Below, piece by piece: positions 17,393-40,908 of a stretch of 42,091 bases of DNA (position 1 is its first letter; each line of letters begins with the position of its first letter). This DNA comes from Pseudomonadota bacterium (GTDB taxonomy: Bacteria; Pseudomonadota; Alphaproteobacteria; Rhodospirillales; 2-02-FULL-58-16). The DNA is taken from NCBI GenBank assembly GCA_022545455.1, contig JACZQZ010000008.1, forward strand, positions 1-42,091. The letters are read 5' to 3'. A program made the translations under genes and the position numbers. The notes below the pieces were generated by a model. That model was not told the origin of the DNA. It saw only the letters and a list, made by a program, of their open reading frames with translations, and ran no database searches.

Positions 17393-17742
17393 GCGTCGTC
17401 CTCCTGGCCTTCGATTTCGTCGTCCTCGATGGTGCCGTACGCGTTGCGGATGCGCACCACCAGCGCCAGGGCCAACGCCGTGGTGGCGACGGCGACCACG
17501 ATGGCGGTCAGGATCAGCACATGGGGCAGGGGGTTGGAATAGGTCTCGATGCCCGCGTCCAGGATCGGCGCCGTGCCGCCCTGGACCTTGGCCATGGAGA
17601 TATAGAACACGAACACCGAAACCTGGAATATGTTGAGGCCGACCACCTTCTTGATCAGGTTGTCGTGCGCGATGACAATGTAAAAGCCGACCATCATCAG
17701 CACGATGGTGATCCAGTAGTTATAGAGGCCGGGGAACTCCAC
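17389..17742 (-). CDS. mrpC: Mrp antiporter subunit C (NuoK-like)
   Basis: 117 residues, three membrane spans. NuoK/MrpC markers: GFYIVIAHDNLIKKVVGL near residue 30, then NPLPHVLILTAIVVAVATTALALAL, in which the PLPHVLILTAIVV stretch is nearly invariant in the family. The end is acidic (EDDEIEGQEDDA). It lies 3 bases after mrpB and overlaps mrpD by 4 bases. Confidence 0.94.
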   Translation of the reverse strand: MEFPGLYNYWITIVLMMVGFYIVIAHDNLIKKVVGLNIFQVSVFVFYISMAKVQGGTAPILDAGIETYSNPLPHVLILTAIVVAVATTALALALVVRIRNAYGTIEDDEIEGQEDDA

Positions 17743-17745
17743 CGT

Positions 17746-18162
17746 TCAGCCGTCCTGATGGGCGAAGATGAAGAAAATGGTGATCATGGCGCCGGAGACG
17801 GTGGCGCCGACCCCGAACTCGATCAGGGTAATGCCCAGGTGCTGGCCGATCACCGGGTTGTCGGCGAGCACCGAGTAATCCAGGAAGTTGCCGCCGAGCA
17901 AAATTCCCGCCACCCCCACGCTGGCATAGAGCAGCAGGCCCAGCGACAGCAGCGTCCGCGTCGCCCATGCCGGGGCCACCTTGCGGGCGTTGTCGATGCC
18001 GAAGATGAGGGCGTAGAGGATGAACGCGCTGGCGAAGATGACGCCGGCCTGGAAGCCGCCGCCGGGGCCGAAATCGCCGTGGAACTGCACATAGAGCGCG
18101 AACAGCATGATCGGCGGGATCAGGAGCTTGGAGACGACCCGCAGGATGGCCTTGAATATCAT
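17746..18162 (-). CDS. mrpB: Mrp antiporter subunit B (MnhB domain)
   Basis: 138 residues with about four spans. MnhB markers are the G-rich GPGGGFQAGVIFASAFILY mid-N-terminal segment and a central GAGATVSGAMI-like region near the C-terminus (here GVGATVSGAMITI). In Mrp complexes it packs beside the MrpA C-terminal part. ATG 18162 overlaps the stop of the upstream MrpA-like gene by 4 bases. Confidence 0.92.
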   Translation of the reverse strand: MIFKAILRVVSKLLIPPIMLFALYVQFHGDFGPGGGFQAGVIFASAFILYALIFGIDNARKVAPAWATRTLLSLGLLLYASVGVAGILLGGNFLDYSVLADNPVIGQHLGITLIEFGVGATVSGAMITIFFIFAHQDG

Positions 18163-18692
18163 TGCGCGGCCTCCTTTTTGTCCGCCGGTTTGCGCTTCTT
18201 CTTGGGCCTGCGGGAGCGTCCGATAAGGATCAGGACGCCCACGGCGGCGGTGAAGATGACCGCCACCTCGCCCAGGGTGTCATAGCCCCGGTAGCTGGCC
18301 AGAACCGCCGTCACCACGTTGGGCAGGCCGGTGTCGGGTCCGGTTCTCGTGAGGTAGTAGGGCGCCACGTGACTGTGGATGGGGGCGTTCGGGTCGCCGT
18401 AGCGGGGCATGTCCATGGTGCCGTAGATCAACACCGCGCCGGTGGCCACGACCAAAAGCAGCGGCGCCAGGGTCTTGCGCGGCGCGGCCTTCTCGTCGCT
18501 GGTGGTGAGCGCCAGGGTTCCCAGCATGAGCACGGTGGTGATGCCGGCGCCGACGGCGGCTTCGGTGAAGGCGACGTCCACCGCGTCCAGCACGACGTAC
18601 AGCACCGCCGCCAACAGGCTGAACACGCCCGCCAGCATGACCACGGCGAACAGGTTCCTCAGGCGCACCAGGGCCAACGCCGTAACCGCCAT
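18159..18692 (-). CDS. MrpA C-terminal-like subunit (DUF4040/MbhD plus MbhE-like region)
   Basis: 177 residues. The N-terminal half is the DUF4040/MbhD type, with LDAVDVAFTEAAVGAGITTVL as its signature split by the membrane; the second half, with NVVTAVLASYRGYDTLGE, matches the MbhE-like part that in standard operons is fused to the end of MrpA. Here it is a separate gene, as in Mbh/Mbx-type operons. The Mrp structural work places the conserved Glu of this region on the proposed ion path. The best ATG (18692) appears late: the helix begins upstream as LIDFALLSF, and a CTG at 18719 overlapping the mrpG stop may be the real start. Confidence 0.85.
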   Translation of the reverse strand: MAVTALALVRLRNLFAVVMLAGVFSLLAAVLYVVLDAVDVAFTEAAVGAGITTVLMLGTLALTTSDEKAAPRKTLAPLLLVVATGAVLIYGTMDMPRYGDPNAPIHSHVAPYYLTRTGPDTGLPNVVTAVLASYRGYDTLGEVAVIFTAAVGVLILIGRSRRPKKKRKPADKKEAAQ

Positions 18693-18715
18693 GAACGAGA
18701 GCAGCGCGAAGTCGA

Positions 18716-19075
18716 TCAGGTTTTCGATGGCCCGTCTGTCCTTTCGCTGGATTTGGCCGAAGGGGCGTCCTTCCCGTCCACGACGGGCGTGACACCGCCG
18801 TTCAGCGCCGCCCGCGCCAGCGCGTGGGTGGTCGTCGGGCTGGCGAAGAATATGAAGACAACGATCAGGACCAGCTTCACCGTCACCATGGTGAAGCCTT
18901 CATGGATCATCAGCCCGGCGAGGATCAGTCCCATGCCGAGCGTATCCACGATCCCGGCCCCGTGCATGCGGGTAAAGACATCGGGCAGGCGGATAATGCC
19001 GACGGCGCCGATGAAGGCGAACAGCGAACCGGCGATCAGGCATGCCCAGCTGGCGATGTCGGCGAGCAGCGCCAT
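18716..19075 (-). CDS. mrpG: Mrp antiporter subunit G
   Basis: 119 residues from ATG 19075. Three spans; the MnhG/PhaG markers are FIGAVGIIRLPDVFTRMHGAG and DTLGMGLILAG, then KLVLIVVFIFFASPTTTHALARAA. An extra polar tail of about 25 residues follows. ATG 19075 has GGGGAG 7 bases upstream and shares a base with the mrpF stop; a GTG at 19078 is the alternative start. Confidence 0.92.
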   Translation of the reverse strand: MALLADIASWACLIAGSLFAFIGAVGIIRLPDVFTRMHGAGIVDTLGMGLILAGLMIHEGFTMVTVKLVLIVVFIFFASPTTTHALARAALNGGVTPVVDGKDAPSAKSSERTDGPSKT

Positions 19076-19362
19076 CACACGTCTCCCCGTTCGTCTTCGC
19101 CCAAGGGGTGGCCCAGGTGGCTGAACTTGACGTATTTGGTCACGGCGATGGTGGCGATGAAGTTGATCAGCGCATAGACCAGCGCGATGTCCAGGAACTC
19201 GGGCCGCCCGGCGAGGAAGCCGTGGACGGCGATGAGGACCACGGTCAGGGTGCCGAAGGCGTTGACCGCCAGGATGCGGTCGTAAATGGTCGGACCCTTG
19301 ATGGCGCGGACCAATGCCAGCGCCATGGTGACGAGGATGGCGGCGGAGGCGCCGGCGAACAT
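19075..19362 (-). CDS. mrpF: Mrp antiporter subunit F
   Basis: 95 residues, three spans. The MnhF/PhaF signature is RAIKGPTIYDRILAVNAFGT, followed by ALVYALINFIATIAVTKY. The stop codon overlaps mrpG and the start is immediately on the mrpE stop, so the E-F-G genes are coupled. Confidence 0.93.
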   Translation of the reverse strand: MFAGASAAILVTMALALVRAIKGPTIYDRILAVNAFGTLTVVLIAVHGFLAGRPEFLDIALVYALINFIATIAVTKYVKFSHLGHPLGEDERGDV

Positions 19363-19862
19363 CAGACCCCGTGCTCCCCTCGGCCGTCGGCGGCGCCCTC
19401 CACCGCGGTGACGCGGCGGTCCATGTCGCCGCTTATCAGCCCTTCGGCGGCCTCGCGGGTGAGGGCGTGGACGCTCAGCACCCCTTCCTCCAGGCCTATG
19501 GTGACCGTTCCCGGCGTCAGGGTGATGGAGTTGGCGTAGATGACATGGCCCAGCTCGCTCTTCTGGGTGCCCTTGAGGCGCAGCACGGTGGGGCCGATGA
19601 CCATCTTAGGGCGGACGATGACACGGGCGATGTCGATGTTGGCCTTGACGATCTCCCACCCCAGCCACGGCAGATAAAGGAGGAAACGCCAGCTCAGGTG
19701 AATGGGGTGGCCTTCGCGGTCGATCAGGTCCATGCGCCGGGCAATGAGGACGACGACGATGGTCGAGGCGACGCCGAGACCCAGCAACAGGGGCTGGTAA
19801 TGGCCCGACAGCAGCAGCCAAAGCCCGTAAAGGACCGCTCCGAGACTCAGCGCTTGCAGCAA
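19362..19862 (-). CDS. mrpE: Mrp antiporter subunit E
   Basis: 166 residues. Two N-terminal spans precede the cytoplasmic MnhE domain with LPWLGWEIVKANIDIARVI and the NSITLTPGTVTIGL signature; the last 40 residues are polar. The start is TTG 19862, 7 bases after GGGGGAG; there is no nearby ATG in frame. It is the first gene of the operon, divergent from the DUF192 gene across 162 bases that should hold both promoters. TTGACG on the minus strand at 19958-19963 is a possible -35 box, without a convincing -10. Confidence 0.9.
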   Translation of the reverse strand: MLQALSLGAVLYGLWLLLSGHYQPLLLGLGVASTIVVVLIARRMDLIDREGHPIHLSWRFLLYLPWLGWEIVKANIDIARVIVRPKMVIGPTVLRLKGTQKSELGHVIYANSITLTPGTVTIGLEEGVLSVHALTREAAEGLISGDMDRRVTAVEGAADGRGEHGV

Positions 19863-20532: not shown

Positions 20533-20562
20533 TTGACAGGCCGCGTTTTGTACACCTAGCTT
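20533..20562 (+). promoter_or_regulatory. Candidate promoter of the suyAB-sdh-like operon
   Basis: A perfect TTGACA (20533-20538), an 18-bp spacer and TAGCTT (20557-20562). It begins 5 bases after the DUF192 stop and lies about 40 bases before the suyA start. The -10 box overlaps a direct repeat (20559-20576) that could be an operator. Confidence 0.5.
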
Positions 20563-20576
20563 TGCACCGCTTTGCA
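20559..20576 (+). promoter_or_regulatory. Direct repeat GCTTTGCA x2 at one-helical-turn spacing
   Basis: GCTTTGCA occurs at 20559-20566 and again at 20569-20576, a 10-base period that puts both copies on the same DNA face. They overlap the candidate -10 box and the likely transcription start of the suyAB operon, the place expected for a repressor. No regulator gene is seen in the window. Confidence 0.35.
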
Positions 20577-20603
20577 GGCGGGCCTGAAACCGGGGAGGAA
20601 CAA

Positions 20604-20891
20604 TTGGCGGCACCGCATTTTCTCGTGCACAACACCGTCGACACCACGGGCGTGGTGGTGGTGGAAGGCGTCGAAGCCGGCGACGAGCTGACCGGCTGGG
20701 TCATGGAGACCGACGGCACCGTCACGGTGAAGGCGCGCGATGCCATTCCCCTGGGCCACAAGGTATCCCTCGGCGACATCAAGAAGGGCGATACCATCAT
20801 CAAGTACGGCCACGACATCGGCCTGGCGGTCGCCGACATCCCCGAGGGCGGGCACGTCCACGTCGACAACGTCAAGACCAAGAGGTGGTAG
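20604..20891 (+). CDS. suyA: (R)-sulfolactate sulfo-lyase, small (alpha) subunit SuyA
   Basis: 95 residues, SAF-domain protein homologous to the N-terminal part of altronate/galactarate dehydratases. With SuyB it splits (R)-3-sulfolactate into pyruvate and sulfite in the cytoplasm. The sequence shows PHFLVHN at the start, the [18 protein letters not shown] core, IPLGHKVSL and IIKYGHDIG, and the terminal [12 protein letters not shown] that I associate with SuyA. Start is TTG 20604, directly after a near-perfect GGGGAGGA site; no ATG fits. The gap to suyB is 2 bases. A plain UxaA-type sugar-acid dehydratase is the alternative; neighbours that look like sulfolactate dehydrogenases (38974, 39907) argue for SuyA. 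Confidence 0.78.
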
Positions 20892-20893
20892 CC

Positions 20894-22060
20894 ATGGCAA
20901 CGCCGACTTTCCGGGGATACCGGCGCACCGACGGCCGGGTCGGAATCCGCAACCACGTCGTTATCCTGCCGCTGGACGATCTGTCCAACGCCGCGTGCGA
21001 GGCGGTCGCCCACAACATCAAGGGCACCCTGGCCCTGCCCCACCATTACGGCCGGCTGCAGTTCGGCGAGGACCTGGAACTGTTCTTCCGCACCCTGATC
21101 GGCACCGGCAGCAACCCCAACGTCGCCGCCGTGGTGGTGATCGGCATCGAACCGGCCTGGACCGGGCGCATCGTCGACGGCATCGCCGCCACCGGCAAGC
21201 CCGTGGAAGGCTTCGCCATCGAACGGAACGGCGACCACAACACCATCGCCGCCGCCTCGCGCAAGGCCAAGGAGTACGTCCATTGGGCCAGCGAGCTGAG
21301 GCGCGAGGAATGCGCCTTCGGGGAAACCTGGATTTCCGTGAAGTGCGGCGAATCCGACACCACGTCGGGTCTCGCCTCCAACCCCACCGTGGGCAACATG
21401 ATCGACAAGGTGGACGCCATGGGCGCGACCACCTGTTTCGGCGAGACCTCCGAGATCACCGGCGCCGAGCAGGTCTGCGCCGCCCGCGCCGCCACCCCGG
21501 AGGTGGGCGAGAAATTCCTCAAGACCTGGTCCGATTACAACGACTTCATCATGGCCAACAAGACCGACGACCTGAGCGACAGCCAGCCCACCAAGGGCAA
21601 TATCGAAGGCGGCCTCACGACCATCGAGGAGAAGGCCTTCGGCAACCTGGAAAAGATCGGCCGGACGACGAAATACATCGACGTGCTGAAACCCGCCGAA
21701 CGGCCGGCCAAGGGACCGGGCCTGTATTTCATGGACACCTCTTCGGCGGCGGCCGAATGCGTGACCCTTCAGGCCGCCGCCGGGTTCACCGTCCACCTGT
21801 TCCCGACCGGCCAGGGCAACGTCATCGGCAACCCGATCGAGCCGGTCATCAAGCTGACCGCCAATCCGCGCACGGCGCGGACCATGGGCGAGCACGTGGA
21901 CCTGGACGTGTCCGGCCTGTTGCGGCGTGAAATGACCCTGGACGAGGCCGGGGACGCGCTGCTCGAGATGACCGTTCGCGTCTGCAACGGGCGGCTGACG
22001 GCGGCGGAGGTGCTCGGTCACCGCGAGTTCGTGATCACCAAGCTGTACCGGAGCGCCTGA
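20894..22060 (+). CDS. suyB: (R)-sulfolactate sulfo-lyase, large (beta) subunit SuyB
   Basis: 388 residues, UxaA/GarD C-terminal family. Segments recalled from SuyB proteins are very well kept: [77 protein letters not shown] and [18 protein letters not shown]. Cys in KCGES and the other conserved Cys residues probably hold an iron or Fe-S site as in this dehydratase family. The ATG at 20894 follows AGAGGTGG. The gene sits between suyA and an SDH-like set of subunits, 84 bases before the latter. Specificity for sulfolactate rests on resemblance and context, not on a tested residue. Confidence 0.8.
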
Positions 22061-22144
22061 AGCGCAAGGCCGGCGGCGCACGCGTCCCGTTCCCGGGCCG
22101 GGCGGCCACCGGCGGCGCGGACGGGCACAAGGAAGACGGCGAAC

Positions 22145-22870
22145 ATGGCGGACATGGCTTCCATGCTGGATGTCTCGGTCTGGCGGGGCGCCGACGAGGG
22201 CCGGTTCGTTTCCTACCCGGTTCCGCGCCGCGAAAACCAGACCGTGCTCGACGTGGTCACCTACGTCCAGCGGCGCCTCGATGCGACGCTGGCGTACCGC
22301 TTTTCCTGCCGGGTCGGCATGTGCGGCTCGTGCGCCATGACGGTCAACGGGGTGGCGCGGTGGACGTGCCGCACCCACGTCGGCCGGGTGGCCAAGGACG
22401 GCCGCCTGCGCATCGCGCCCCTGAGGAACATGCCGGTGATCAAGGACCTCAGCGTCGACATGGCCGGGTTCTTCGCCAAGGCGGCGCGCGCCAAAGGCGC
22501 GTTCCGTCCCACCGCCGACAGGACCGCGGACTTCGCCGTCATCGCGCCCGATTCGCCCCGACGCCGGCGCGCCGACGCCGCCATCGAATGCATCGGATGC
22601 GGGGTGTGCTATGCCTCGTGCGACGTGGTCACCTGGAACCCGGATTACCTGGGGCCGGCGGCGCTGAACCGCGCCTGGACCCTGGTCAACGACGAACGCG
22701 ACGGGGGCAACCGGGAACGCCTCGCCGCGGTGGCGGGGGACGCCGGCTGCCATGCCTGCCATTCCCACCAGAGCTGCATGGAGCGCTGCCCGAAGCATCT
22801 CAACCCGACGGAATCGATCGCCGGACTGAAGCGGGCGACGGTGCTCGCCGCGCTCACGGGGAAACTGTGA
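22145..22870 (+). CDS. Succinate dehydrogenase/fumarate reductase-like iron-sulfur subunit
   Basis: 241 residues, SdhB/FrdB architecture. The [2Fe-2S] ligands are Cys55, Cys60, Cys63 and Cys75 (SCRVGMCGSC). The C-terminal ferredoxin domain has CIGCGVCYASC (Cys149, 152, 155, 159) and CHSHQSCMERCPKHLNPT (Cys205, 211, 215), enough for a [4Fe-4S] and a [3Fe-4S] cluster; Cys202 is extra. It would carry electrons from a flavoprotein to the membrane quinone site. No flavoprotein gene is adjacent; the only candidate in the window is at 37244. It lies downstream of suyB and overlaps the first anchor gene by 4 bases, so it is a specialised paralogue rather than the TCA-cycle enzyme. Confidence 0.85.
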   Translation: MADMASMLDVSVWRGADEGRFVSYPVPRRENQTVLDVVTYVQRRLDATLAYRFSCRVGMCGSCAMTVNGVARWTCRTHVGRVAKDGRLRIAPLRNMPVIKDLSVDMAGFFAKAARAKGAFRPTADRTADFAVIAPDSPRRRRADAAIECIGCGVCYASCDVVTWNPDYLGPAALNRAWTLVNDERDGGNRERLAAVAGDAGCHACHSHQSCMERCPKHLNPTESIAGLKRATVLAALTGKL

Positions 22871-23217
22871 GCGCCCGCGCCGAAACCCTTTTGTGGCTCG
22901 CCCAGCGCATCAGCGCCATGGTCCTGGCGGTGGTCGTGGCGGTGCACATCGGCACCATCATCTACGCCGTGCAGGGCGGCTTGAGCGCCCAGGAGATCAT
23001 CGGCCGCGTGCAGGGAAACACCGGCTGGCTGGCGTTCTACGGGGTGTTCGTCGCCGCCGTTGCCGTCCACGGGCCGATCGGCCTGCGCACCATCCTGCGC
23101 GAGATGACGCCGGTGCCGGCGCGCCTGATCGACGTGGCGGCGGCCGCCTTCGCCGTCCTCCTGGCGTGGACGGGCTGGCAGGCGGCGTATGGCCTGTACG
23201 GGTTCGGAGGGGCCTGA
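22867..23217 (+). CDS. SDH-like membrane anchor subunit (first)
   Basis: 116 residues, three hydrophobic helices. The first carries LAQRISAMVLAVVVAVHIG and the second AVAVHGPIGLRTIL, similar to the SdhC/FrdC patterns HRxSG and HxxxGlR, whose His residues usually ligate heme b. GTG 22867 overlaps the stop of the iron-sulfur subunit. It should anchor the SDH-like complex and form part of the quinone site with the next gene. Confidence 0.75.
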   Translation: MSARAETLLWLAQRISAMVLAVVVAVHIGTIIYAVQGGLSAQEIIGRVQGNTGWLAFYGVFVAAVAVHGPIGLRTILREMTPVPARLIDVAAAAFAVLLAWTGWQAAYGLYGFGGA

Positions 23218-23573
23218 TGCGCCCGTTCCGGCTTGCCGGCGGGTCGCGCGACCATCCCGCGTACTGGGCCTTCGCCGTGCACCGCCTGTCGGGCCTTTTG
23301 TTGGTGCTTTTCCTGCCCGCCCACTTCTACGTGCTTTCGCGCGCCATCCAGGGCGCGGCGGCCCTGGACGCCGTGCTCGCGTGGACCGAGGGTCCGCTGG
23401 TCAAGGCCGCCGAGGTCGGCCTGATACTTCTCCTCGCCGCCCACCTGACCGGCGGGCTGCGCCTTCTCGCCGTGGAGTTCCTGCCCTGGCGGGACTGGCA
23501 GAAGACCCTGATCGCCGTCACCGCCGGCGTCAGCCTCCTGATCGGCCTCGGTTTCCTGATCAACGTGGCGTGA
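23217..23573 (+). CDS. SDH-like membrane anchor subunit (second)
   Basis: 118 residues, three spans. AVHRLSGLLLVLFLPAHFYVL and LAAHLTGGLRLLAVEF match the SdhC-type HRxSG and HxxxGxRHL signatures, with His residues available as heme ligands. ATG 23217 shares a base with the stop of the first anchor. Together with the two preceding genes it completes an SDH-like membrane arm without a flavoprotein. Confidence 0.78.
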   Translation: MRPFRLAGGSRDHPAYWAFAVHRLSGLLLVLFLPAHFYVLSRAIQGAAALDAVLAWTEGPLVKAAEVGLILLLAAHLTGGLRLLAVEFLPWRDWQKTLIAVTAGVSLLIGLGFLINVA

Positions 23574-31102: not shown

Positions 31103-31957
31103 ATGGCACGACTGGCGATGAAGCGGCCATTGTATTTGGGATTATTGCTGATTGGCCTTGCCGGCTGCGCCGGCATGGCCACCCGCGGGCTCGCGCAAAG
31201 CCTTTCCCAGGCCATCGTCAACCATGACGACCCGGCGACGGTTAAGGCCGGGGCGCCGGCCTACCTGCTGTTGCTCGACGGCTTCATCGACGAGTCCCCC
31301 GACGATCCGGATTTGCTGATCGCCGGCGCCCGGTTGAACGGGGTCTACGCGACCGTTTTCGTCGAGGACCCGGAGCGCGCCCGGCACCTGTCGGGCAAGG
31401 CGCGGGCCTACGCGGGCCGCGCCCTGTGCCTGCGCCATCCGCCGATGTGCGCCCAGGATCGGCGGCATTTCGATGAATTCGCGCCGCTGCTCGCCGCCAT
31501 GACCGAGGCCGACGTTCCCGCCCTCTACACCTATGCCACCGTCTGGGCCGGTTGGATACAGACGCGCAGCGGCGATTGGGACGCAATCGCGGACCTGCCC
31601 AGGGTCGAGGCCATGTTGGAAAGGGTGGTGGCCCTCGACGAGGGCTACGACCGTGGACAGGCCCACCTGTACCTGGGAGTGATGCGCACCCTGCTGCCAC
31701 CGGCCCTGGGCGGCCGGCCCAGGGAAGGCCGGGCGCACTTCGAGCGCGCCATCGCGCTTTCTAAGGGTCGCAACCTCATGGCCAAGGTGGAGTTCGCCAG
31801 ACGCTACGCCCGGCTGGTGTTTGACCAGGCCATGCACGACCGCCTGCTGCGCGAGGTGCTGGAGGCCGATCCCCGCGAACCGGGGCTGACCCTGAGCAAT
31901 ACCCTGGCCCGCCAACAGGCACGGCAACTGCTGGCAACGTCCGAAGACTATTTTTAG
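31103..31957 (+). CDS. TatT-type lipoprotein of a TRAP transporter (TPR-like)
   Basis: 284 residues. The lipobox LAGC gives Cys22 as the lipid-bearing residue. The rest is all alpha-helical with TPR-like packing: SQAIVNHDDP, GAPAYLLLLDGFIDESPDDPDLL, KARAYAGRALCLRHP, and a late repeat REGRAHFERAIALSKGRN. This matches the TRAP transporter TatT family, in which a trimeric periplasmic lipoprotein docks the TRAP binding protein and may hand over hydrophobic ligand. The TRAP genes follow directly (9 bases to the binding protein). Start ATG 31103 is behind GGGAGGCGG. Confidence 0.85.
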   Translation: MARLAMKRPLYLGLLLIGLAGCAGMATRGLAQSLSQAIVNHDDPATVKAGAPAYLLLLDGFIDESPDDPDLLIAGARLNGVYATVFVEDPERARHLSGKARAYAGRALCLRHPPMCAQDRRHFDEFAPLLAAMTEADVPALYTYATVWAGWIQTRSGDWDAIADLPRVEAMLERVVALDEGYDRGQAHLYLGVMRTLLPPALGGRPREGRAHFERAIALSKGRNLMAKVEFARRYARLVFDQAMHDRLLREVLEADPREPGLTLSNTLARQQARQLLATSEDYF

Positions 31958-31966
31958 GAGCGAATC

Positions 31967-32986
31967 ATGTCGCGGAACCGAATGGCCCTCTTCGTCCTCA
32001 TCGCGTGCGTCTTGGGCGCGCTCCCTTACGGCGCCGGCGCCCAAACGTTGAAGATCGCAGCCGTCGTCCCGGATGGAACGGGCTGGATGCGGGAGATGCG
32101 CAACAGCGCCAAGGAGATAGCCACCCGCACCGAGGGTCGGGTGAGATTCAAGTTCTATCCGGGCGGCGTCATGGGCAACGACAAGAACGTCCTGCGCAAG
32201 ATCCGCATCGGCCAGCTTCACGGCGGCGCCATGACCGCCAGTGGATTGACCGCGATATACCGCGATGCGGTGATCTACAACCTGCCGTTCATCTTCTGGT
32301 CTTATGCCGAGGTCGATTACGTGCGCAAGCACATGGACCCGCTCATCATCGACGCCCTGAGAGAGCGCGGTTTTATCAGCTTCGGACTGGTGGAGGCCGG
32401 ATTTTCGTACTTCATGTCCCGGCAGCCGATCCGCACCGTGGACGATTTGCGAAAACGCAAGGTGTGGGTCCCCGACGATGAGGAGGTCGGCCGCACCGTA
32501 TTCAAGGCGCTCGACGTCTTTCCCGTTCCCCTGCCGCTGACCGATGTGCTCACGGCCCTGCAGACCGGGCTCGTCGATACGGTTCCCAACTCTCCGGTCG
32601 GCCACATCACCTTCCAGTGGCATAGGCGGGTGAAGTACTTCACCGACATCCCGCTCATTTACCTTTACGGATCGCTGGTTATCCAACGCCGGGCGTTCGA
32701 ACGGCTGAGGAGCGAAGACCAAGCCGTCGTCCACGAAGTCCTGGCGGTGGCGTCGGGCAGGATCGACCGCCGGAACCGCGAGGCCAATCACCGGGCGCGG
32801 ATGGCCTTGCGGCGTCAAGGCATCGTCTTTGTCGAGCCAGCGGATGAGGACCTGCAGAAGTGGAAAAACGTGATTGCCGATTCGGTTGGCGGCCTCAGTC
32901 GGAAAGGAATTTTTAGCGCCGGGATTCTGACAACGCTCCAGGGCCATCTGGATGACTACCGACGCATCGCCCTCAAATCCAAATAA
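31967..32986 (+). CDS. dctP: TRAP transporter substrate-binding protein (DctP/TatP family)
   Basis: 339 residues. Signal peptide cut near GAGA-Q (residue 25). DctP-fold landmarks are KIAAVVPDGTGW at the start of the mature protein, FKFYPGGVMGNDK, RIGQLHGGAMTASG, IYNLPFIFWSYAEVD and DVLTALQTGLVDTVPNSP. The usual conserved carboxylate-binding Arg (helix after the FxxPGGxxG region and in RKVWVPDDEEVGRTVFKALD) seems present, but specificity cannot be read. Organic acids and sulfonates are carried by such systems. Start ATG 31967 has AGGAG upstream. Its end overlaps dctQ by 35 bases. Confidence 0.9.
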   Translation: MSRNRMALFVLIACVLGALPYGAGAQTLKIAAVVPDGTGWMREMRNSAKEIATRTEGRVRFKFYPGGVMGNDKNVLRKIRIGQLHGGAMTASGLTAIYRDAVIYNLPFIFWSYAEVDYVRKHMDPLIIDALRERGFISFGLVEAGFSYFMSRQPIRTVDDLRKRKVWVPDDEEVGRTVFKALDVFPVPLPLTDVLTALQTGLVDTVPNSPVGHITFQWHRRVKYFTDIPLIYLYGSLVIQRRAFERLRSEDQAVVHEVLAVASGRIDRRNREANHRARMALRRQGIVFVEPADEDLQKWKNVIADSVGGLSRKGIFSAGILTTLQGHLDDYRRIALKSK

Positions 32987-33476
32987 CGGGATCCTGGGCC
33001 GCCTGGCGCGGGTGACGGCGGCCATCGAGGACGGCCTTCTCGTCATGCTCCTTTCGGCGATGATCGTTCTGGCGGGAAGCCAGATCGTGCTGCGCAACCT
33101 GTGGGATGCGGGTCTTTTTTGGGCCGACCCCCTGCTGCGCGTATCGGTCCTGTGGGTGGGCCTTTTGGGGGCCATGGCCGCCACCCGCGACGACAACCAC
33201 ATCACGGTCGACATCCTGTCGCGCGTGCTGAGCGAGCGGGCCCGGTCGGCGGGCCGCGTGATCACCGACCTGTTCACCTCGGCGGTGTGCGGTCTCCTCG
33301 CCTACCACGGCGCGCGCATGGTGCGCATGGATTACGAGGCGGGTCTCTTGGCTTTCGCCGCCGTGCCGGCGTGGGCGTGCGAGCTGATCATTCCCATAGG
33401 GTTTGGCGTCATCGCCGTCCGCTTTCTGCTGTCTTCGCTCGACCACCTGTGGCGGTTTTCGGGAGCCCGGCAATGA
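32952..33476 (+). CDS. dctQ: TRAP transporter small permease DctQ
   Basis: 174 residues, four membrane spans, matching the 4TM DctQ family: LVMLLSAMIVLAGSQIVLRN, then WADPLLRVSVLWVGLLGAMAAT, the DDNHITVD loop signature, and two later helices. With DctM it forms the sodium-driven membrane part. It begins inside the end of the binding-protein gene and overlaps dctM by 4 bases. Confidence 0.92.
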   Translation: MTTDASPSNPNNGILGRLARVTAAIEDGLLVMLLSAMIVLAGSQIVLRNLWDAGLFWADPLLRVSVLWVGLLGAMAATRDDNHITVDILSRVLSERARSAGRVITDLFTSAVCGLLAYHGARMVRMDYEAGLLAFAAVPAWACELIIPIGFGVIAVRFLLSSLDHLWRFSGARQ

Positions 33477-34750
33477 TCCTGACCGGGACCCTGCTGGTCA
33501 TCCTGGCCCTGCTCGGGGCGCCGCTGTTTGCCGTCATCGCCGCCAGCGCGCTCATCGGCTTTCATCTCTCCGGGGTGGATCTTTCGGCGGTGACCATCGA
33601 GCTCTACCGCCTGGCGGAGATGCCGGTGCTGCTGGCCATCCCCCTGTTCACCTTTGCCGGCTACCTGCTCAGCGAGAGCCAGGCGCCGGCCCGGCTGGTC
33701 GCGCTGGCGCGGGCGCTTCTGGGATGGATGAAGGGCGGGTTGGGCATCGTGGCGCTGGTCGCCTGTGCGCTGTTCACCGCGCTGACGGGGGCGTCGGGCG
33801 TCACCATCGTCGCCCTCGGCGCCCTGCTCTATCCGGCGCTCGCCCAGGCGGGCTACGGCGACCGCTACAGTCTCGGCCTGATCACGACGTCCGGCAGCCT
33901 GGGCCTCCTGTTCGCGCCTTCGCTGCCGCTCATCCTCTACGCCGTGATCGTTCAGCGGCTCGGCGTGGGGCGGGCCGCGAGCGTCGACGAGATGTTCCTC
34001 GCCGGCATCCTGCCCGGCCTGTTGATGCTGATGATGCTCGCGGTTTGGAACGCCTGGAGCAACCGCACCCAGCCCCTGAGCGCGTATTCCTGGAGCGAGG
34101 CCCGGGCGGCCCTGGGTGCGGCCCGGTGGGAGATACCCCTGCCGTTCGTCGTGTTGGGCGGGATCTACAGCGGCTTCTTCGCCGTTTCCGAAGCGGCCGC
34201 GGTGACCGCGCTCTACGTGCTCGTGGTCGAGGTCGTGATCCACCGCGAGGTGACCCCCGGCGAGCTGCCAAGGATCATGCGCGAATCGATGGTCCTGGTG
34301 GGCGGCATTCTGATCATCCTCGGCGCTTCGCTGGCCTCCACCAACTACCTCATCGATGTCGAGGTCCCGACCCGGTTGTTCGCGGCGATCAAGGCGCATA
34401 TCTCCGACCGGCTCACGTTCCTGATTTTGCTGAATATCTTTCTGTTGGTGCTCGGCACCATGTTGGACATCTTCTCGGCCCTGGTCCTCATGGTGCCGCT
34501 GCTGTTGCCGATCGCCGTCGGCTACGGCATCGACCCGGTTCACTTCGGCATCATCTTCCTGGCCAACATGCAGATCGGCTACTTCACGCCGCCGGTGGGG
34601 ATGAACCTGTTTATCGCCAGCTACCGGTTCAACAAGCCGATCCTGCTGTTGTTCCGGGCGACCCTGCCGTTCCTGGCGATTCTGTTGGCGGCCGTGCTCG
34701 TCATCACCTACTGGCCGGCCCTGTCCCTGGTCCTGGTCGGCAGGCCATAA
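33473..34750 (+). CDS. dctM: TRAP transporter large permease DctM
   Basis: 425 residues, about 12 spans. DctM signatures include LAIPLFTFAGYLLSES, LFTALTGASGVTIVALGAL and the second-half counterpart MLDIFSALVLMVPLLLPIA, then NMQIGYFTPPVGMNLFIAS, the conserved sodium-coupling region. ATG 33473 overlaps the dctQ stop (ATGA). Last gene of the TatT-TRAP operon. Confidence 0.94.
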   Translation: MILTGTLLVILALLGAPLFAVIAASALIGFHLSGVDLSAVTIELYRLAEMPVLLAIPLFTFAGYLLSESQAPARLVALARALLGWMKGGLGIVALVACALFTALTGASGVTIVALGALLYPALAQAGYGDRYSLGLITTSGSLGLLFAPSLPLILYAVIVQRLGVGRAASVDEMFLAGILPGLLMLMMLAVWNAWSNRTQPLSAYSWSEARAALGAARWEIPLPFVVLGGIYSGFFAVSEAAAVTALYVLVVEVVIHREVTPGELPRIMRESMVLVGGILIILGASLASTNYLIDVEVPTRLFAAIKAHISDRLTFLILLNIFLLVLGTMLDIFSALVLMVPLLLPIAVGYGIDPVHFGIIFLANMQIGYFTPPVGMNLFIASYRFNKPILLLFRATLPFLAILLAAVLVITYWPALSLVLVGRP

Positions 34751-35662: not shown

Positions 35663-35757
35663 TTCGGGGCCGCGCGGTTGTTCCGGGCGCCGGGCGGCGG
35701 GGCGTCACCACCCATCGCGTGCGCGCACCGCGGATGGGGCAACAGGAGGAACGCACC

Positions 35758-36633
35758 ATGATCGTTGACCTTGCGGTCGCCGAGGAGACGGCGAAGCTCC
35801 TCTACATCCGTGCCCTCAAGCTGCTGCCCGACGACGTGAAAGAGGGTTTCGCCCGCCTCGACGCCGGCGAGTCGGACGCCACGGCCAAGGACGTGCTCGC
35901 CACCATGATCAGGAACATCGACGTGGCGGAGAAGACCGACAACCTGCTGTGCCAGGACACCGGCATCCCCATCTACAACGTCACCATCGGGCGCAACGTC
36001 GACGTCGACGGTTTCGCCCTGAAGGAAGCCATCCGGCGCGGCTGCGCGCGGGCGACCAAGGAATACCCGCTGCGGTCTTCCATCGTCCATCCCCTCACCC
36101 GGGTGAACGAGCACACCTCGTGCGGCCGGCGGGTGCCGGTGATCAACATCGACTTCTCCGACACCGACGACGAGCTGCTGATCGAGATGATCCCCAAGGG
36201 CAGCGGCTCGGAGAACGGCTCGTTCCTGAAGATGTGCATCCCGGCGGACGGGGTGGACGGCATCAAGGTCTTCGTCATCGACAAGGTGCTGGAGGCGGGC
36301 GGCAGGGTGTGCCCGCCGACCATCGTCGGCGTCGGCGTCGGCGGCACCGCCGACCTGTGCGTCCATCTGGCGAAGATAGCGGCGACGCGCCCCTTGGGCA
36401 CCAGCTGCGACGATCCCGACGGCGCCAGGCTGGAAGAGGAGCTGACCACGGCGGTGAACAGCCTGGGCGTCGGCCCCCAGGGCCTGGGCGGCGATTCGAC
36501 CGCGTTCGCCGTGCACGTCGAGATGGCGGCGACCCACATCACCATGAATCCCGTCGCCGTCAACATCCAGTGCCACTCGGCGCGCCGCGCCAGCGCCACG
36601 TTCACGCCCGACGGCATCGAGCTGGGGTTTTAG
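35758..36633 (+). CDS. Class I fumarase / tartrate dehydratase-like alpha subunit
   Basis: 291 residues, the size of TtdA-type alpha subunits. It binds the [4Fe-4S] cluster of a class I hydro-lyase. The three cluster cysteines are probably Cys65 (NLLCQDTG), Cys185 (GRVCPPTIVG) and Cys272 (NIQCHSAR); their spacing (120 and 87) fits known class I fumarases. GSGSENGSFLKMC and GIGGTADLC-like (GVGGTADLC) segments are family standards. ATG 35758 follows AGGAGG. It is first in an operon with the beta subunit, a flavoprotein and two hydroxyacid dehydrogenases, so it likely hydrates an unsaturated acid to a 2-hydroxyacid; fumarate, tartrate, mesaconate or sulfoacrylate cannot be told apart by sequence. 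Confidence 0.85.
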   Translation: MIVDLAVAEETAKLLYIRALKLLPDDVKEGFARLDAGESDATAKDVLATMIRNIDVAEKTDNLLCQDTGIPIYNVTIGRNVDVDGFALKEAIRRGCARATKEYPLRSSIVHPLTRVNEHTSCGRRVPVINIDFSDTDDELLIEMIPKGSGSENGSFLKMCIPADGVDGIKVFVIDKVLEAGGRVCPPTIVGVGVGGTADLCVHLAKIAATRPLGTSCDDPDGARLEEELTTAVNSLGVGPQGLGGDSTAFAVHVEMAATHITMNPVAVNIQCHSARRASATFTPDGIELGF

Positions 36634-36635
36634 CC

Positions 36636-37247
36636 ATGACCGAGCACGACCTTCGAATGCCGTGCGGCGAAGCCGACGTGCGCAAGCTCAGGATCAGCGA
36701 TCACGTGACCCTGCAGGGGACCCTGTTCGGCATCCGCGACGCGACCCAGATCCACATGTTCGACAAGCACCGCAACACCCGCTTCGACCTGAACGGCCAC
36801 GCGGTGATCCACACCGCCCCCAACGTCAGGAAGGTGGAGCCCTCGGAACGATACCCGGCCGGCTACGCGCCCATTTGCATCGGCACCACGACGAGCGCCC
36901 GCATGGAGCGCTTCACCCGTCCCTTGATGCACCAGTACGGCGTGCGCATCATCATCGGCAAGGGCGGCCTGGGCGACGAGTCGCTGAAGGCGTTCGGAGA
37001 CCTGGGCGGCGTGTATCTCGCCATCATCGGGGGCACGGCGGCCCTGGAGACGACCTGGATCGAGACCATCGAGGACGTGGACCTGGACGACCTCAACCCG
37101 GAAAGCCTGTGGAAGTTCAGGATCAGGGATTTCGGCCCCTTGCGGGTGGCCATGGATTCCCATGGCGGCAGCCTCTATGACACGGTGCGCCGCGACGCCG
37201 CCGGCCGCCGCGCGGCGGCCCTCGCGGCCATGGGGGTGCGCGGTTGA
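36636..37247 (+). CDS. Class I fumarase / tartrate dehydratase-like beta subunit
   Basis: 203 residues, like TtdB and the C-terminal half of single-chain class I fumarases. Landmarks are LRISDHVTLQGTLFGIRDATQ, IHTAPNVRK, GTTTSARMERF, and KGGLGDE followed by GVYLAIIGGTAAL, with the SLYD near the end. It contacts the substrate together with the alpha subunit's cluster. Begins 2 bases after the alpha stop and overlaps the flavoprotein gene by 4 bases. Confidence 0.86.
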   Translation: MTEHDLRMPCGEADVRKLRISDHVTLQGTLFGIRDATQIHMFDKHRNTRFDLNGHAVIHTAPNVRKVEPSERYPAGYAPICIGTTTSARMERFTRPLMHQYGVRIIIGKGGLGDESLKAFGDLGGVYLAIIGGTAALETTWIETIEDVDLDDLNPESLWKFRIRDFGPLRVAMDSHGGSLYDTVRRDAAGRRAAALAAMGVRG

Positions 37248-38968
37248 GGCGGCTGAAGACCGACATCTTGATCCTCGGCAGCGGCGGCGCCGGCCTTTTC
37301 GCCGCCCTTCATGCCCAAGCGGCGGCGCCCGATCTGTCCGTCACCGTGGCGGTGAAGGGCCTGCTCGGCAAATCCGGCTGCACGCGCATGGTCCAGGGCG
37401 GCTACAACGTGGCCCTGGCGCCCGGCGATTCCGTCGAGCGCCACTTCATGGACACCATCGAGGGCGGCAAGTGGCTGAACGACCAGGAGCTTGCCTGGAC
37501 CCTGGTCACCGGCGCCCGGGAGCGCATCCGCGAGCTGGAGAACGAGGTCGGCTGCTTTTTCGACCGTAACCCGGACGGCACCATCCACCAGAAGGCCTTC
37601 GCCGGGCAGACCTTCGACCGCACCGTGCACAAGGGCGACCTGACGGGCATCGAGATCATCAACCGCCTGGCCGAGCAGGTGTGGGCCCGCGACATCGGCC
37701 GCCTGGAGGACCACCGCGCCGTGGAGCTGATCAAGACGCCGTCCGCGGACGCCATCGCCGGGGTGCTGATGATCGACATGCGGGCGGGCGATTTCGTCTT
37801 CGTCCAGGCGCGGGCGGTGCTGCTGGCCACCGGCGGCGGCCCCACCATGTACAAGTACCACACGCCGTCCGGCGACAAGAGCTGCGACGGCATGGCCATG
37901 GCGCTGCGCGCCGGGCTGCCGCTCAGGGAAATGGAGATGATCCAGTTCCACCCCACCGGCCTCATGGCGGGGCCGGAGACGCGCATGACCGGCACCGTGC
38001 TGGAGGAGGGCCTGCGCGGTTTCGGCGGGCACCTGCTTGACGGCGCGGAGAGGCGCTTCATGCCCGACTACGACCGCCACGCCGAGCGGGCGACGCGGGA
38101 CATCGTCAGCCGCGCCATGTACGAGGAAATGCGCGCCGGCAACACGGCGCCCGAGGGCGGCCTTTACCTGACCATGCGCCACCTGGATCCGGACGCGGTG
38201 AAGGCCGGGTTCAAGGGCATGGTCGAACGCTGCGCCGACTGCGGCTTCGACCTGGTCGGCGGCCTGGTCGAGGTGGTGCCCACCGCCCATTACATGATGG
38301 GCGGCGTGGTCTTCGGCGTCGACTGCGGCACCGAGATCGCCGGCCTGTTCGCCGCCGGCGAGGACACCGGCGGGGTGCACGGGGCCAACCGCCTGGGCGG
38401 CAACGGCGTCGCCAACGCGACCGTCTTCGGGGCCATCGCCGGCGACACCATGGCGGCCTCGGTCGCCGGCGCGGACGGCTTCCGCGACCCCGACGAGGAC
38501 GCCATCGCCGCCGGCGTGGAGCGCTGCCGGACGCCGCTCGGCCGCCCGCCCGGGGATATCGAAGAGATCCGCGAGCGGCTTTCCGAACTGATGTGGGAGG
38601 ACGTGGGTATCGTCCGCAGCGCCTCGGGGCTGGAACGGGCGGGCGCCGCCCTGGTCGCGCTGGAGACCGACCTCGACGCCGTCGGCGTCGCCGGGGAGGA
38701 CCTGGTCTACAACCTTACCTGGCACGACTGGTTGAACCTGAAGAGCCTGATCCTGGTCGGCCGCGCCATCACCGCGGCGGCCATGGGGCGCGAGGATTCC
38801 CGGGGCGCCCACTTCCTGTCCGACCATCCGGAGGAGGGGGACCTGGCCGCCTCGCGCTTCACCAGCGTCCGCCTCGACGGCGGCGATATGGTGGTCCGCA
38901 CCGAGCCCGTGCGCTTCACCCGGGTCAAGCCGGGCGAGACCCTGCTCGCCGATTCGGCCGCCGAGTAG
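37244..38968 (+). CDS. SDH/fumarate reductase-like flavoprotein with non-canonical FAD and pocket residues
   Basis: 574 residues, close to SdhA in length. N-terminal FAD motif GSGGAG (12-17). QFHPTG (His236), TRD (Arg285), HYMMGG (His349) and ANRLGGN (Arg383) sit almost at the E. coli SdhA numbers 242, 286, 354 and 399, so the substrate site and proton-shuttle Arg are kept. Two things differ: the FAD-linking His (SdhA His45) is Cys46, so the flavin should not be held as histidyl-FAD, and the TEGCRGEGG pocket loop reads EEGLRGFGG after a 6-residue insertion. Start is TTG 37244 inside the beta-subunit stop, with GGGGGTG upstream. It should pair with the iron-sulfur and anchor genes at 22145-23573; L-aspartate oxidase or APS-reductase-like relatives are less likely with the fumarase-like genes beside it. 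Confidence 0.82.
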   Translation: MRRLKTDILILGSGGAGLFAALHAQAAAPDLSVTVAVKGLLGKSGCTRMVQGGYNVALAPGDSVERHFMDTIEGGKWLNDQELAWTLVTGARERIRELENEVGCFFDRNPDGTIHQKAFAGQTFDRTVHKGDLTGIEIINRLAEQVWARDIGRLEDHRAVELIKTPSADAIAGVLMIDMRAGDFVFVQARAVLLATGGGPTMYKYHTPSGDKSCDGMAMALRAGLPLREMEMIQFHPTGLMAGPETRMTGTVLEEGLRGFGGHLLDGAERRFMPDYDRHAERATRDIVSRAMYEEMRAGNTAPEGGLYLTMRHLDPDAVKAGFKGMVERCADCGFDLVGGLVEVVPTAHYMMGGVVFGVDCGTEIAGLFAAGEDTGGVHGANRLGGNGVANATVFGAIAGDTMAASVAGADGFRDPDEDAIAAGVERCRTPLGRPPGDIEEIRERLSELMWEDVGIVRSASGLERAGAALVALETDLDAVGVAGEDLVYNLTWHDWLNLKSLILVGRAITAAAMGREDSRGAHFLSDHPEEGDLAASRFTSVRLDGGDMVVRTEPVRFTRVKPGETLLADSAAE

Positions 38969-38973
38969 GAACC

Positions 38974-39903
38974 GTGGCCGACATCGTCATCGCCGAGTTC
39001 ATGGACGAGTCCGCGGTCGAGGACCTGCGCCGGGACTACGACGTGGTCTACGACCCCGGACTGGTCGACCGCGCCGAGGACCTGCTCGCCGCCGTCGCCG
39101 GCTGCCGGGCGCTGGTCGTGCGCAACCGCACCCAGGTGCGCGGCGCCCTGCTCGACGCGGCGCCGCGCCTGGAGGCGCTGGGACGCCTGGGCGTGGGCCT
39201 GGACAACATCGACATGGAGGCCTGCCAGGCCCGGGGCATCGCCGTGTTGCCGGCGACCGGCGCCAACGACCTGGCGGTCGCCGAGTACGTCATCGCCGGC
39301 CTGTTGATGCTTCTGCGCGGCGCCTACCACGCCGGCGCCCGGGTACTGGCCGGGGAGTGGCCGCGCACGGACCTGATGGGGCGCGAGGTCGCCGGCCGCC
39401 GCCTGGGCCTGATCGGCTTCGGCGCCATCGGCCGGTCGGTGGCGTCCCGGGCGCGGGCGCTGGGCATGACCGTTGCCGCCTGCGACCCATACGTGTCCGC
39501 CGACGATCCGGCCTGGGCCGCCCTGTCGGTGGAGCCACGGGACTTCGACGCCGTCGTGGCCGAAAGCGACGCCCTCAGCCTGCACGTGCCGCTGACCGAC
39601 GAGACCCGCCATCTGATCGACGGCAAAGCGCTCTCGCGCATGCGGCCCGGCGCCGTCCTCATCAACGCCGCCCGCGGCGGCGTGGTCGACGAGGACGCGG
39701 TGGCCGGGGCCCTCAGGGCGGGCACGCTCGGCGGCGCCATGCTCGACGTGTTCGAGAACGAGCCCCTGGCGGCGGGCTCGGCATTGGACGGCGTCCCCAA
39801 CCTGATCCTCACCCCCCACATCGCCGGGCTGAGCGAGGACTCGCACCGGCGCATCAGCGCGGTCACCGCGGCCAACGTGCGCCGGGTGCTGGAAGGGAAT
39901 TGA
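38974..39903 (+). CDS. slcC: D-2-hydroxyacid dehydrogenase, probable (S)-sulfolactate dehydrogenase SlcC
   Basis: 309 residues, D-isomer 2-hydroxyacid dehydrogenase family (NAD-binding GLIGFGAIG at 145-153, Asp171 at the end of the second strand favours NAD). The catalytic triad is Arg234 (NAARGG), Glu263 (FENEP) and His282 (TPHIAG). SlcC turns (S)-sulfolactate into sulfopyruvate. The N-terminal half (IVIAEFMDESAVEDL, YDPGLVDR, LVVRNRTQVRG, RLGVGLDNID) is the subfamily that, as I recall, contains SlcC; other 3-phosphoglycerate-dehydrogenase-like activities remain possible. Start GTG 38974 has GTAGGAACC before it. It lies 5 bases after the flavoprotein and 3 bases before comC, the SlcC-ComC pairing known for sulfolactate racemisation. 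Confidence 0.75.
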   Translation: MADIVIAEFMDESAVEDLRRDYDVVYDPGLVDRAEDLLAAVAGCRALVVRNRTQVRGALLDAAPRLEALGRLGVGLDNIDMEACQARGIAVLPATGANDLAVAEYVIAGLLMLLRGAYHAGARVLAGEWPRTDLMGREVAGRRLGLIGFGAIGRSVASRARALGMTVAACDPYVSADDPAWAALSVEPRDFDAVVAESDALSLHVPLTDETRHLIDGKALSRMRPGAVLINAARGGVVDEDAVAGALRAGTLGGAMLDVFENEPLAAGSALDGVPNLILTPHIAGLSEDSHRRISAVTAANVRRVLEGN

Positions 39904-39906
39904 TCC

Positions 39907-40908
39907 GTGGCCAACCTGACCCTGGACGCGCTCCACGATCTGGCCGTGCGCGTCCTTTGCGCGTCCCGGACCTCGCCGGAGAACGCCGCCGCCGTGGCCC
40001 AGGCGCTGGTGGCGGCCGAGGCCGATGGGTTGGCCGGCCATGGCGCGTCGCGCCTGCCGGCCTATGCCGACCAGGCCATGGCCGGCAAGGTGGACGGCTT
40101 CGCCACGCCCGGGCTCAGCGAAACGGCCGCCGCCGCCGTTCGGGTGGATGCGCGCAACGGTTTCGCCTACCCGGCCATCGCCCTCGGGCTCGACCACGCC
40201 GCCCGCATGGTGGAGAAGACCGGCGTCGTCGCCGTGGCGGTGGGCAATTCCCATCATTTCGGCGCCGCCGGCTACCACGTGGAGCGGCTGGCGGAAAAGG
40301 GCCTCCTCGGCCTCGCCTTCGGCAACTCGCCGGCGGCCATCGCGCCGTGGGGCGGGTCCAGGGCCCTTTACGGCACCAATCCCATCGCCTGCGCCTGTCC
40401 CCGGGCCGGCGCCGCGCCCCTGGTCATCGACCTCGGTTTGAGCAAGGCCGCCCGGGGCACGATCATGGTCGCCGCGCAAAAAGGCGAGCCCATCCCCGAG
40501 GGCTGGGCGCTGGACGCCGAGGGCCGGCCGACCACCGACGCCAAGGCGGCCATGGAGGGCACCATGCTGCCCATGGGCGACGCCAAGGGGTCGGCCCTGG
40601 TGCTCATGGTCGAGATCCTGGCCGCGGCGCTCACCGGTTCCCATTTCGGCTATCAGGCGAGCTCCTTCTTCGACGCCGAGGGGCCGCCGCCCCGGATCGG
40701 CCAGTTCTTCCTCGTCCTCAGGCCCGAATGCTTCGCCGGCGACGCCTTCCCCGGGCGGCTGGAGGAACTCCTGGCCGCCATCGTCGAACAGCCGGGGGCC
40801 CGCCTGCCCGGGCAGCGGCGGCTGGCCAACCGCGAGAAGGCGCGGCGCTCGGGCGTGGACATCCCCGACGCCCTCCACGCCGAATTGCTCAAGCGCGCCG
40901 AAGGATGA
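39907..40908 (+). CDS. comC: Ldh_2-family dehydrogenase, probable (R)-sulfolactate dehydrogenase ComC/SlcD
   Basis: 333 residues, malate/L-lactate dehydrogenase (Ldh_2) family, which has a non-Rossmann NAD(P) fold. Conserved active-site residues: GHGASRLPAY (His45, Ser48, Arg49) and NSHHFGAAGY (His116, His117); cofactor and substrate stretches NSPAAIAPWGG and YGTNPIACACP are also standard. ComC reduces sulfopyruvate to (R)-sulfolactate, the SuyAB substrate; family members also act on malate, ureidoglycolate or 2,3-diketo-gulonate. Adjacent to the SlcC-like gene, it would close the sulfolactate inversion. Start GTG 39907. End of the operon; a hairpin follows 6 bases after the stop. Confidence 0.75.
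   Translation: MANLTLDALHDLAVRVLCASRTSPENAAAVAQALVAAEADGLAGHGASRLPAYADQAMAGKVDGFATPGLSETAAAAVRVDARNGFAYPAIALGLDHAARMVEKTGVVAVAVGNSHHFGAAGYHVERLAEKGLLGLAFGNSPAAIAPWGGSRALYGTNPIACACPRAGAAPLVIDLGLSKAARGTIMVAAQKGEPIPEGWALDAEGRPTTDAKAAMEGTMLPMGDAKGSALVLMVEILAAALTGSHFGYQASSFFDAEGPPPRIGQFFLVLRPECFAGDAFPGRLEELLAAIVEQPGARLPGQRRLANREKARRSGVDIPDALHAELLKRAEG

Follow-up and report, generated by a model that had tools for sequence, protein, structure and literature searches.

The flavoprotein encoded at positions 37244–38968 (+) of the window, a 42,091-nucleotide stretch of an alphaproteobacterial genome (Rhodospirillales; contig JACZQZ010000008.1) analysed here at its full length, is probably the A subunit of a complex-II homologue that sits in the membrane and acts on a sulfonate analogue of succinate, most likely 3-sulfopropanoate, with a fumarase-like hydratase (FumAB), the sulfolactate dehydrogenases SlcC/ComC and the sulfo-lyase SuyAB acting downstream. 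The sulfonate reading is supported by sulfolactate gene sets, co-occurrence with SuyB, the comparison with control loci, swaps of the hydro-lyase, sulfite genes, and the presence of a separate ordinary succinate dehydrogenase (SDH) and fumarase.

The open reading frame begins with TTG and encodes 574 amino acids without an internal stop, and its GC content at the three codon positions (0.71/0.48/0.95) is gene-like. Its start overlaps the 3′ end and stop of the upstream FumA-beta frame by 4 bases, and its product contains the Pfam domains FAD_binding_2 and Succ_DH_flav_C, the latter being the C-terminal domain of complex II. The codon composition, the overlap and the domains establish 37244–38968 as a genuine gene, and the family-wide invariance of the residues described below ruled out a sequencing error or pseudogene. 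With both domains, the catalytic His/Arg set, and iron–sulfur and anchor partners, the protein belongs to the complex II superfamily (SDH and fumarate reductase, FRD). The preliminary description had called it an SDH-like flavoprotein; Pfam domains, fold and catalytic residues confirmed the complex-II type, yet the protein falls outside SDH proper. In the profile search, none of the NCBIfam models for SDH, FRD, L-aspartate oxidase (NadB), 8-methylmenaquinol:fumarate reductase (MFR) or thiol:fumarate reductase (TfrA) reached its cut-off. The top score was obtained with TfrA (NF004900, 483 bits vs. a cut-off of 718), and the curated SDH/FRD models TIGR01812 (405 vs. 567 bits), TIGR01816 (311 vs. 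727) and NF006686 (320 vs. 854), the NadB model TIGR00551 (345 vs. 453 bits) and the MFR model (312 vs. 1100) were likewise missed.

Phylogenetic analysis placed the family on its own branch (support 100/100), apart from SDH/FRD and from NadB, whose rows formed long branches in the tree. Its identity to SdhA/FrdA of SDH and FRD was approximately 26–33%, and structure comparison identified E. coli FrdA as the nearest solved fold (TM 0.83–0.85). Two sets of homologues were used, namely 81 relatives with at least 70% identity and 31 homologues from an even, unbiased draw of the class; family members occur in proteobacteria, actinobacteria (Rhodococcus jostii RHA1) and haloarchaea. An ordinary SdhA was also found in 30 of the 31 carriers in the class sample. 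The genome studied here likewise contains an ordinary sdhCDAB and a second class I fumarase, the former ruling out the flavoprotein as a substitute for the genome's SDH.

To assess the active site, the flavoprotein was aligned with the ordinary SdhA of this genome and with SdhA, FrdA and NadB of E. coli. Cys46 (codon 37379–37381, +) aligned with the FAD-linking His45 of SdhA, His45 of FrdA (numbered with Met) and Ser45 of NadB; a one-residue insertion directly before it was required, and the match of GCTRMVQGG to SHTVSAQGG was unambiguous. This cysteine was present in 81/81 near relatives, 31/31 members of the class sample, Rhodococcus and haloarchaea. Residues His236, Glu255, Arg285, His349 and Arg383 corresponded to SdhA His242, Glu255, Arg286, His354 and Arg399. 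The substrate loop HPTG...EEGLRGFGG (residues 236–262; 37949–38029, +), which reads HPTGLMAGPETRMTGTVLEEGLRGFGG, is six residues longer after HPTG than that of SdhA and three longer than that of NadB, includes the basic residue Arg247, and carries Glu254 at the position of SdhA Thr254. Cys46, Lys130, Arg247 and Glu254 were invariant in the 81 relatives (at least 70% identity); Cys46 and Glu254 were also invariant in the 31 class homologues, R. jostii RHA1 and two haloarchaea, where positions 130 and 247 held Lys or Arg. Phe260 occurred in only 9 of the 81 relatives, with Ala as the usual residue, and is therefore not general to the family. These alignments bear out what had been proposed by eye, namely that Cys replaces the FAD-linking His (a family-wide feature, as it proved), that His236, Arg285, His349 and Arg383 hold the active-site positions, and that the loop is altered, with about six residues gained after HPTG and Thr254 changed to Glu. 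The profile alignment that had been suggested as a check, run with SdhA, FrdA and NadB, also put Cys and not His at the FAD position and showed a loop different from that of SDH. The changed acid pocket fits the gene-context evidence for a sulfonate-bearing substrate, although the placement of Glu254 close to a sulfonate is not intuitive and counts against this reading.

The FAD would be either non-covalently held, in which case the substrate couple or the enzyme would have to differ enough, or bound to Cys46. The strict conservation of Cys46 favours a role for the thiol, though a bond to FAD does not follow from it. In MFR of Wolinella, Ala86 occupies the His position, FAD is non-covalent, and fumarate is reduced whereas succinate is not oxidised; His-to-X mutants lose succinate oxidation as well (PMC2680327). 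Since His-less enzymes lose succinate oxidation, oxidation by a Cys46 enzyme needs explaining, either by a Cys linkage or by a different potential. The AlphaFold2 model (66 relatives) gave a clear fold with a pTM of 0.84; with pLDDT below 50 at the loops 39–53, 118–131, 206–210 and 380–386, it is uninformative on the Cys46–FAD distance and the sulfonate pocket. A bolder proposal, which we regard as doubtful, is that the family, spread over proteobacteria, actinobacteria and haloarchaea, makes up a third functional class of complex II. On this proposal, 8-alpha-S-cysteinyl FAD on Cys46 would restore the potential for quinone-linked oxidation of 3-sulfopropanoate, and loci with an MmsA-type gene would release sulfite directly, giving malonate semialdehyde without SuyAB.

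The candidate partner subunits are encoded upstream, 12 kb from the fumarase-like genes and approximately 14 kb from the flavoprotein gene. They comprise an SdhB-like iron–sulfur subunit (22145–22870, +; dhsB/Fer2_3) and two membrane anchors, SdhC-like (22870–23217, +; Sdh_cyt, 32.0 bits) and SdhD-like (23214–23573, +; Sdh_cyt, 41.6 bits). The frame 22893–23573 is a longer read in the SdhD frame, and its interpretation as a single 226-aa anchor was rejected in favour of separate SdhC and SdhD genes. In most relatives, a homologue of the SdhB at 22145 closely precedes the flavoprotein gene, and this synteny upheld the earlier pairing of the two proteins. Among 48 relatives with full flanks, SdhB, SdhC and SdhD were each found near 47 of the flavoprotein genes; in the class sample, in which some contigs are short, SdhB was near 24 of 31.

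Directly before the flavoprotein gene are the alpha (35719–36633, +; Fumerase PF05681, 295 bits) and beta (36636–37247, +; Fumerase_C) subunits of a class I fumarase-like hydratase, whose alpha gene is syntenic in relatives. Such a type 1 fumarase precedes the flavoprotein gene in 9 of the 31 class loci, and a type 2 class I fumarase follows it in 19; the alpha subunits of the two types are 34% identical. In Natribaculum and Haloarcula, the place of the hydro-lyase is taken by an argininosuccinate-lyase homologue. XcbC/XcbC1 of coenzyme M biosynthesis convert phosphosulfolactate to sulfoacrylate. The Natribaculum homologue scored 260 bits with XcbC, below the cut-off of 575, and also exceeded the argH cut-off. 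The argH-annotated gene adjoins both the flavoprotein gene and SuyAB (L101:8203–9705 in Natribaculum, L106:8284–9786 in Haloarcula), a context that suggests a function other than argininosuccinate lyase. The exchange of three different hydrating or eliminating enzymes beside one dehydrogenase suggests a sequence of dehydrogenation followed by hydration.

The window also holds a putative sulfolactate module. SuyA-like (20562–20891, +) and SuyB-like (20885–22060, +) frames precede SdhB, giving the order SuyA-SuyB-SdhB-SdhC-SdhD at 20562–23573, and SlcC-like and ComC-like genes complete the arrangement FumA-alpha/beta-flavoprotein-SlcC-ComC at 35719–40908. The SuyA-like protein weakly matches the N-terminal part of galactarate dehydratase and its gene lies beside SuyB in relatives. 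The genome has no GD_AH_C gene other than the SuyB-like one, whose product is 66% identical to that of a UxaA-family gene beside hpsN/hpsO in Cupriavidus pinatubonensis HN-2; identification of SuyAB had been made in JMP134, a related strain of that species (PMC12890257). The pair at 20562–22060 thus combines a large SuyB of the UxaA/galactarate dehydratase family with a small SuyA, as characterises SuyAB, and is predicted to cleave (R)-sulfolactate. A D-2-hydroxyacid dehydrogenase of the 2-Hacid_dh family (38974–39903, +), found beside ComC and SuyAB in relatives, is the SlcC-like candidate sulfolactate dehydrogenase. The ComC-like Ldh_2 protein (39907–40908, +), whose PDB relatives include L-sulfolactate dehydrogenase (2x06), missed the curated cut-off of NF040650 (192.5 vs. 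500 bits), and gene context points to its ComC role. That SlcC, ComC and SuyAB were assigned from gene context and scores of moderate size counts against the sulfopropanoate reading. A TRAP transporter in four parts (TAtT, DctP, DctQ, DctM; 31103–34750, +), a possible importer of the substrate, lies directly upstream of PAP2 and FumA genes.

Similar gene sets were observed in relatives, in which the flavoprotein is accompanied by its own SdhB-SdhC-SdhD and one of the three hydro-lyases, often near SuyAB, SlcC/ComC, TauE or sulfite oxidase. Methylobacterium radiotolerans carries a single island with the order SdhB-SdhC-SdhD-FumA-alpha/beta-flavoprotein-TPP enzyme-TauE-SuyA-SuyB-symporter-hydroxyacid dehydrogenase-Ldh. 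TauE/YeiH sulfite exporters or sulfite dehydrogenases adjoin the flavoprotein gene in Methylobacterium, Paracoccus, Sulfitobacter, NT-25 and Pseudomonas. The NT-25 cluster also contains TRAP, sulfolactaldehyde-reductase-like and SSADH-like genes, which would be needed for conversion of 3-hydroxypropanesulfonate to 3-sulfopropanoate. The TPP enzyme encoded near many relatives was considered as sulfoacetaldehyde acetyltransferase (Xsc) and rejected (192 bits vs. a cut-off of 676). In Burkholderiales loci (L015, L018, L028, L033, L048, L076 and others), a sulfatase gene recurs between the anchors and FumA, together with TctC-type receptors and the TPP enzyme. A methylmalonate-semialdehyde-type CoA-acylating dehydrogenase gene lies near the type 2 operon in Methylobacterium nodulans (L097), Pseudomonas sp. 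MPC6 (L103) and Cupriavidus sp. P-10 (L111); these loci belong to three different proteobacterial classes, and the dehydrogenases are 62–77% identical to the MPC6 copy.

The association was quantified in 385 genomes drawn without bias from the class. Of these, 32 encoded the flavoprotein and 34 encoded SuyB, with 20 containing both against 2.8 expected (Fisher p 1.6e-16), and a genus-level test with the present genome left out gave p 7.5e-10. At least one of the sulfite-releasing enzymes SuyB and Xsc was encoded by 26 of 32 flavoprotein carriers, compared with 42 of 353 other genomes; neither was detected in the remaining 6/32 carriers, which counts against the sulfopropanoate reading. SuyB was present in 8/9 genomes of type 1, the type of the window, and in 9/19 of type 2. 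At the local level, sulfonate or sulfite genes occurred within approximately 9 kb of 10/31 flavoprotein loci and of 0/30 ordinary sdhA loci in the same genomes (p 5e-4). No recognised sulfonate gene was detected within 8–9 kb in 14/48 full-flank relatives and 21/31 class-sample loci, a further point against, and many genomes without such a local gene encode SuyB or Xsc elsewhere. The comparison with control loci indicated that the local association is real but partial; the genome-level association is stronger.

3-Sulfopropanoate is succinate with a sulfonate in place of one carboxylate, and its dehydrogenation gives 3-sulfoacrylate, hydration of which gives 3-sulfolactate. In the proposed route, the SdhABCD-like complex would oxidise 3-sulfopropanoate to 3-sulfoacrylate and pass the two electrons through its iron–sulfur centres to the quinone pool, FumA-alpha/beta would hydrate 3-sulfoacrylate to 3-sulfolactate, SlcC and ComC would interconvert the sulfolactate enantiomers via sulfopyruvate, and SuyAB would cleave (R)-sulfolactate to pyruvate and sulfite. 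The whole would replay the succinate–fumarate–malate segment on a C3 sulfonate. The substrate, the reaction direction, the stereochemistry of the product and the role of quinone as electron acceptor are all inferred here. At the three type 2 loci, the methylmalonate-semialdehyde-type dehydrogenase could be explained if water were added to sulfoacrylate at its sulfonated carbon, and we speculate that this other regiochemistry yields sulfite and malonate semialdehyde. The SlcC/ComC pair is known as a two-component sulfolactate racemase, with SuyAB releasing pyruvate and sulfite and TauE exporting sulfite (PMC12421959). A 2024 paper described degradation of 3-sulfopropanoate as unreported except for a thesis on Roseovarius nubinhibens, in which it proceeds via sulfoacrylate and sulfolactate (PMC11489063). 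Literature searches for a link between this route and SDH/complex-II or fumarase homologues gave no match and no gene assignment.

Several other functions were weighed against the 3-sulfopropanoate reading. The sulfolactate module may be a mere neighbour that serves another substrate, and an unlikely candidate is a second oxidoreductase for succinate/fumarate or a substituted dicarboxylate such as methylsuccinate, working with the fumarase in dicarboxylate catabolism, with the sulfonate genes incidental. The retained catalytic His/Arg set, the nearby dicarboxylate-type transporters (DctA, TctC, TRAP) and the absence of sulfonate genes at several loci agree with such an enzyme, whereas the separate SdhA in 30/31 carriers, the invariant Thr254-to-Glu change in the pocket, the loop insert with its conserved basic residue, the SuyB co-occurrence (p ~1e-16) and the 0/30 control loci with sulfonate genes argue against it. 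Less probable again is a sulfosuccinate dehydrogenase, which would form sulfofumarate, hydration of which at the sulfonated carbon would free sulfite and oxaloacetate. This proposal involves the same chemistry and sulfite-handling neighbours and accounts for loci without SuyAB; however, it leaves SuyAB, SlcC and ComC without a role despite the strong co-occurrence of SuyB, and gives none to the methylmalonate-semialdehyde-type dehydrogenase of the three type 2 loci or the SSADH-like gene of NT-25.

We consider it very improbable that the enzyme works in the reverse direction and reduces fumarate or sulfoacrylate in the manner of the His-less MFR. TfrA is the top NCBIfam match, albeit below its cut-off, and MFR without the His reduces fumarate and does not oxidise succinate (PMC2680327), but the combination of hydratase, sulfolactate dehydrogenases, sulfite-releasing lyase and sulfite oxidase or exporter is a degradative arrangement.

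The predicted 3-sulfopropanoate dehydrogenase shares with SDH and quinol:fumarate reductase the fold, the catalytic His/Arg residues and SdhB/C/D-type partners. It differs from SdhA/FrdA in the Cys at the FAD-linking His, the Glu at Thr254 and the loop insert of six residues that includes a basic one, and in forming its own clade with its own operon of hydratase and sulfolactate genes. Like MFR (Wolinella SdhABE), it is a complex-II member without the FAD-linking His, but MFR has Ala rather than Cys, an SdhE-type anchor instead of SdhC/D, Tat export and fumarate-reducing activity. TfrA, compared by profile score alone, is the top NCBIfam model, and the protein described here is set apart from it by SdhC/D anchors and sulfonate neighbours. 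NadB also lacks the FAD-linking His, has a loop longer than that of SdhA and shares the His129 position; in contrast, it has Ser instead of Cys, keeps Thr259, uses no Fe–S partner and forms a separate branch. The downstream gene set in the window and in relatives matches the SlcC/ComC/SuyAB pathway (PMC12421959), whose known entries are sulfolactaldehyde, DHPS and sulfolactate itself, whereas entry from a saturated sulfonate through a dehydrogenase and hydratase is proposed here. The SDH-like nature, the Cys, the loop and the Fe–S partner given in the preliminary description stood, but it had missed the conserved family, the anchors, the hydro-lyases and the sulfolactate/sulfite genes, which lie partly in the window.

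Elsewhere in the window, a phosphonopyruvate hydrolase is encoded at 8025–8897 (+; TIGR02321, 395 bits, above the cut-off of 374) beside a branched-chain/urea-type ABC transporter (2879–4126, 4217–5119 and 6213–6974). Use of phosphonoalanine or phosphonopyruvate by this region is likely, and would constitute a second pathway for a C–heteroatom bond in the window. An ordinary Mrp-type Na+/H+ antiporter operon occupies 12456–19862 (−).

Natural sources of 3-sulfopropanoate include fermentation of sulfoquinovose and DHPS, and homotaurine, and a 2026 review called the mechanism of its degradation in Bilophila unclear. If the proposed function is correct, the genes described here, currently annotated as 'FAD-binding protein', 'succinate dehydrogenase' and 'fumarate hydratase', would be candidates for aerobic 3-sulfopropanoate degradation in many Burkholderiales and Alphaproteobacteria. 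Moreover, they would represent a complex II whose gain of a new substrate came with a defined set of changes in its residues, and the family offers a direct test of the effect of a non-His position on flavin attachment and on succinate and sulfonate oxidation.
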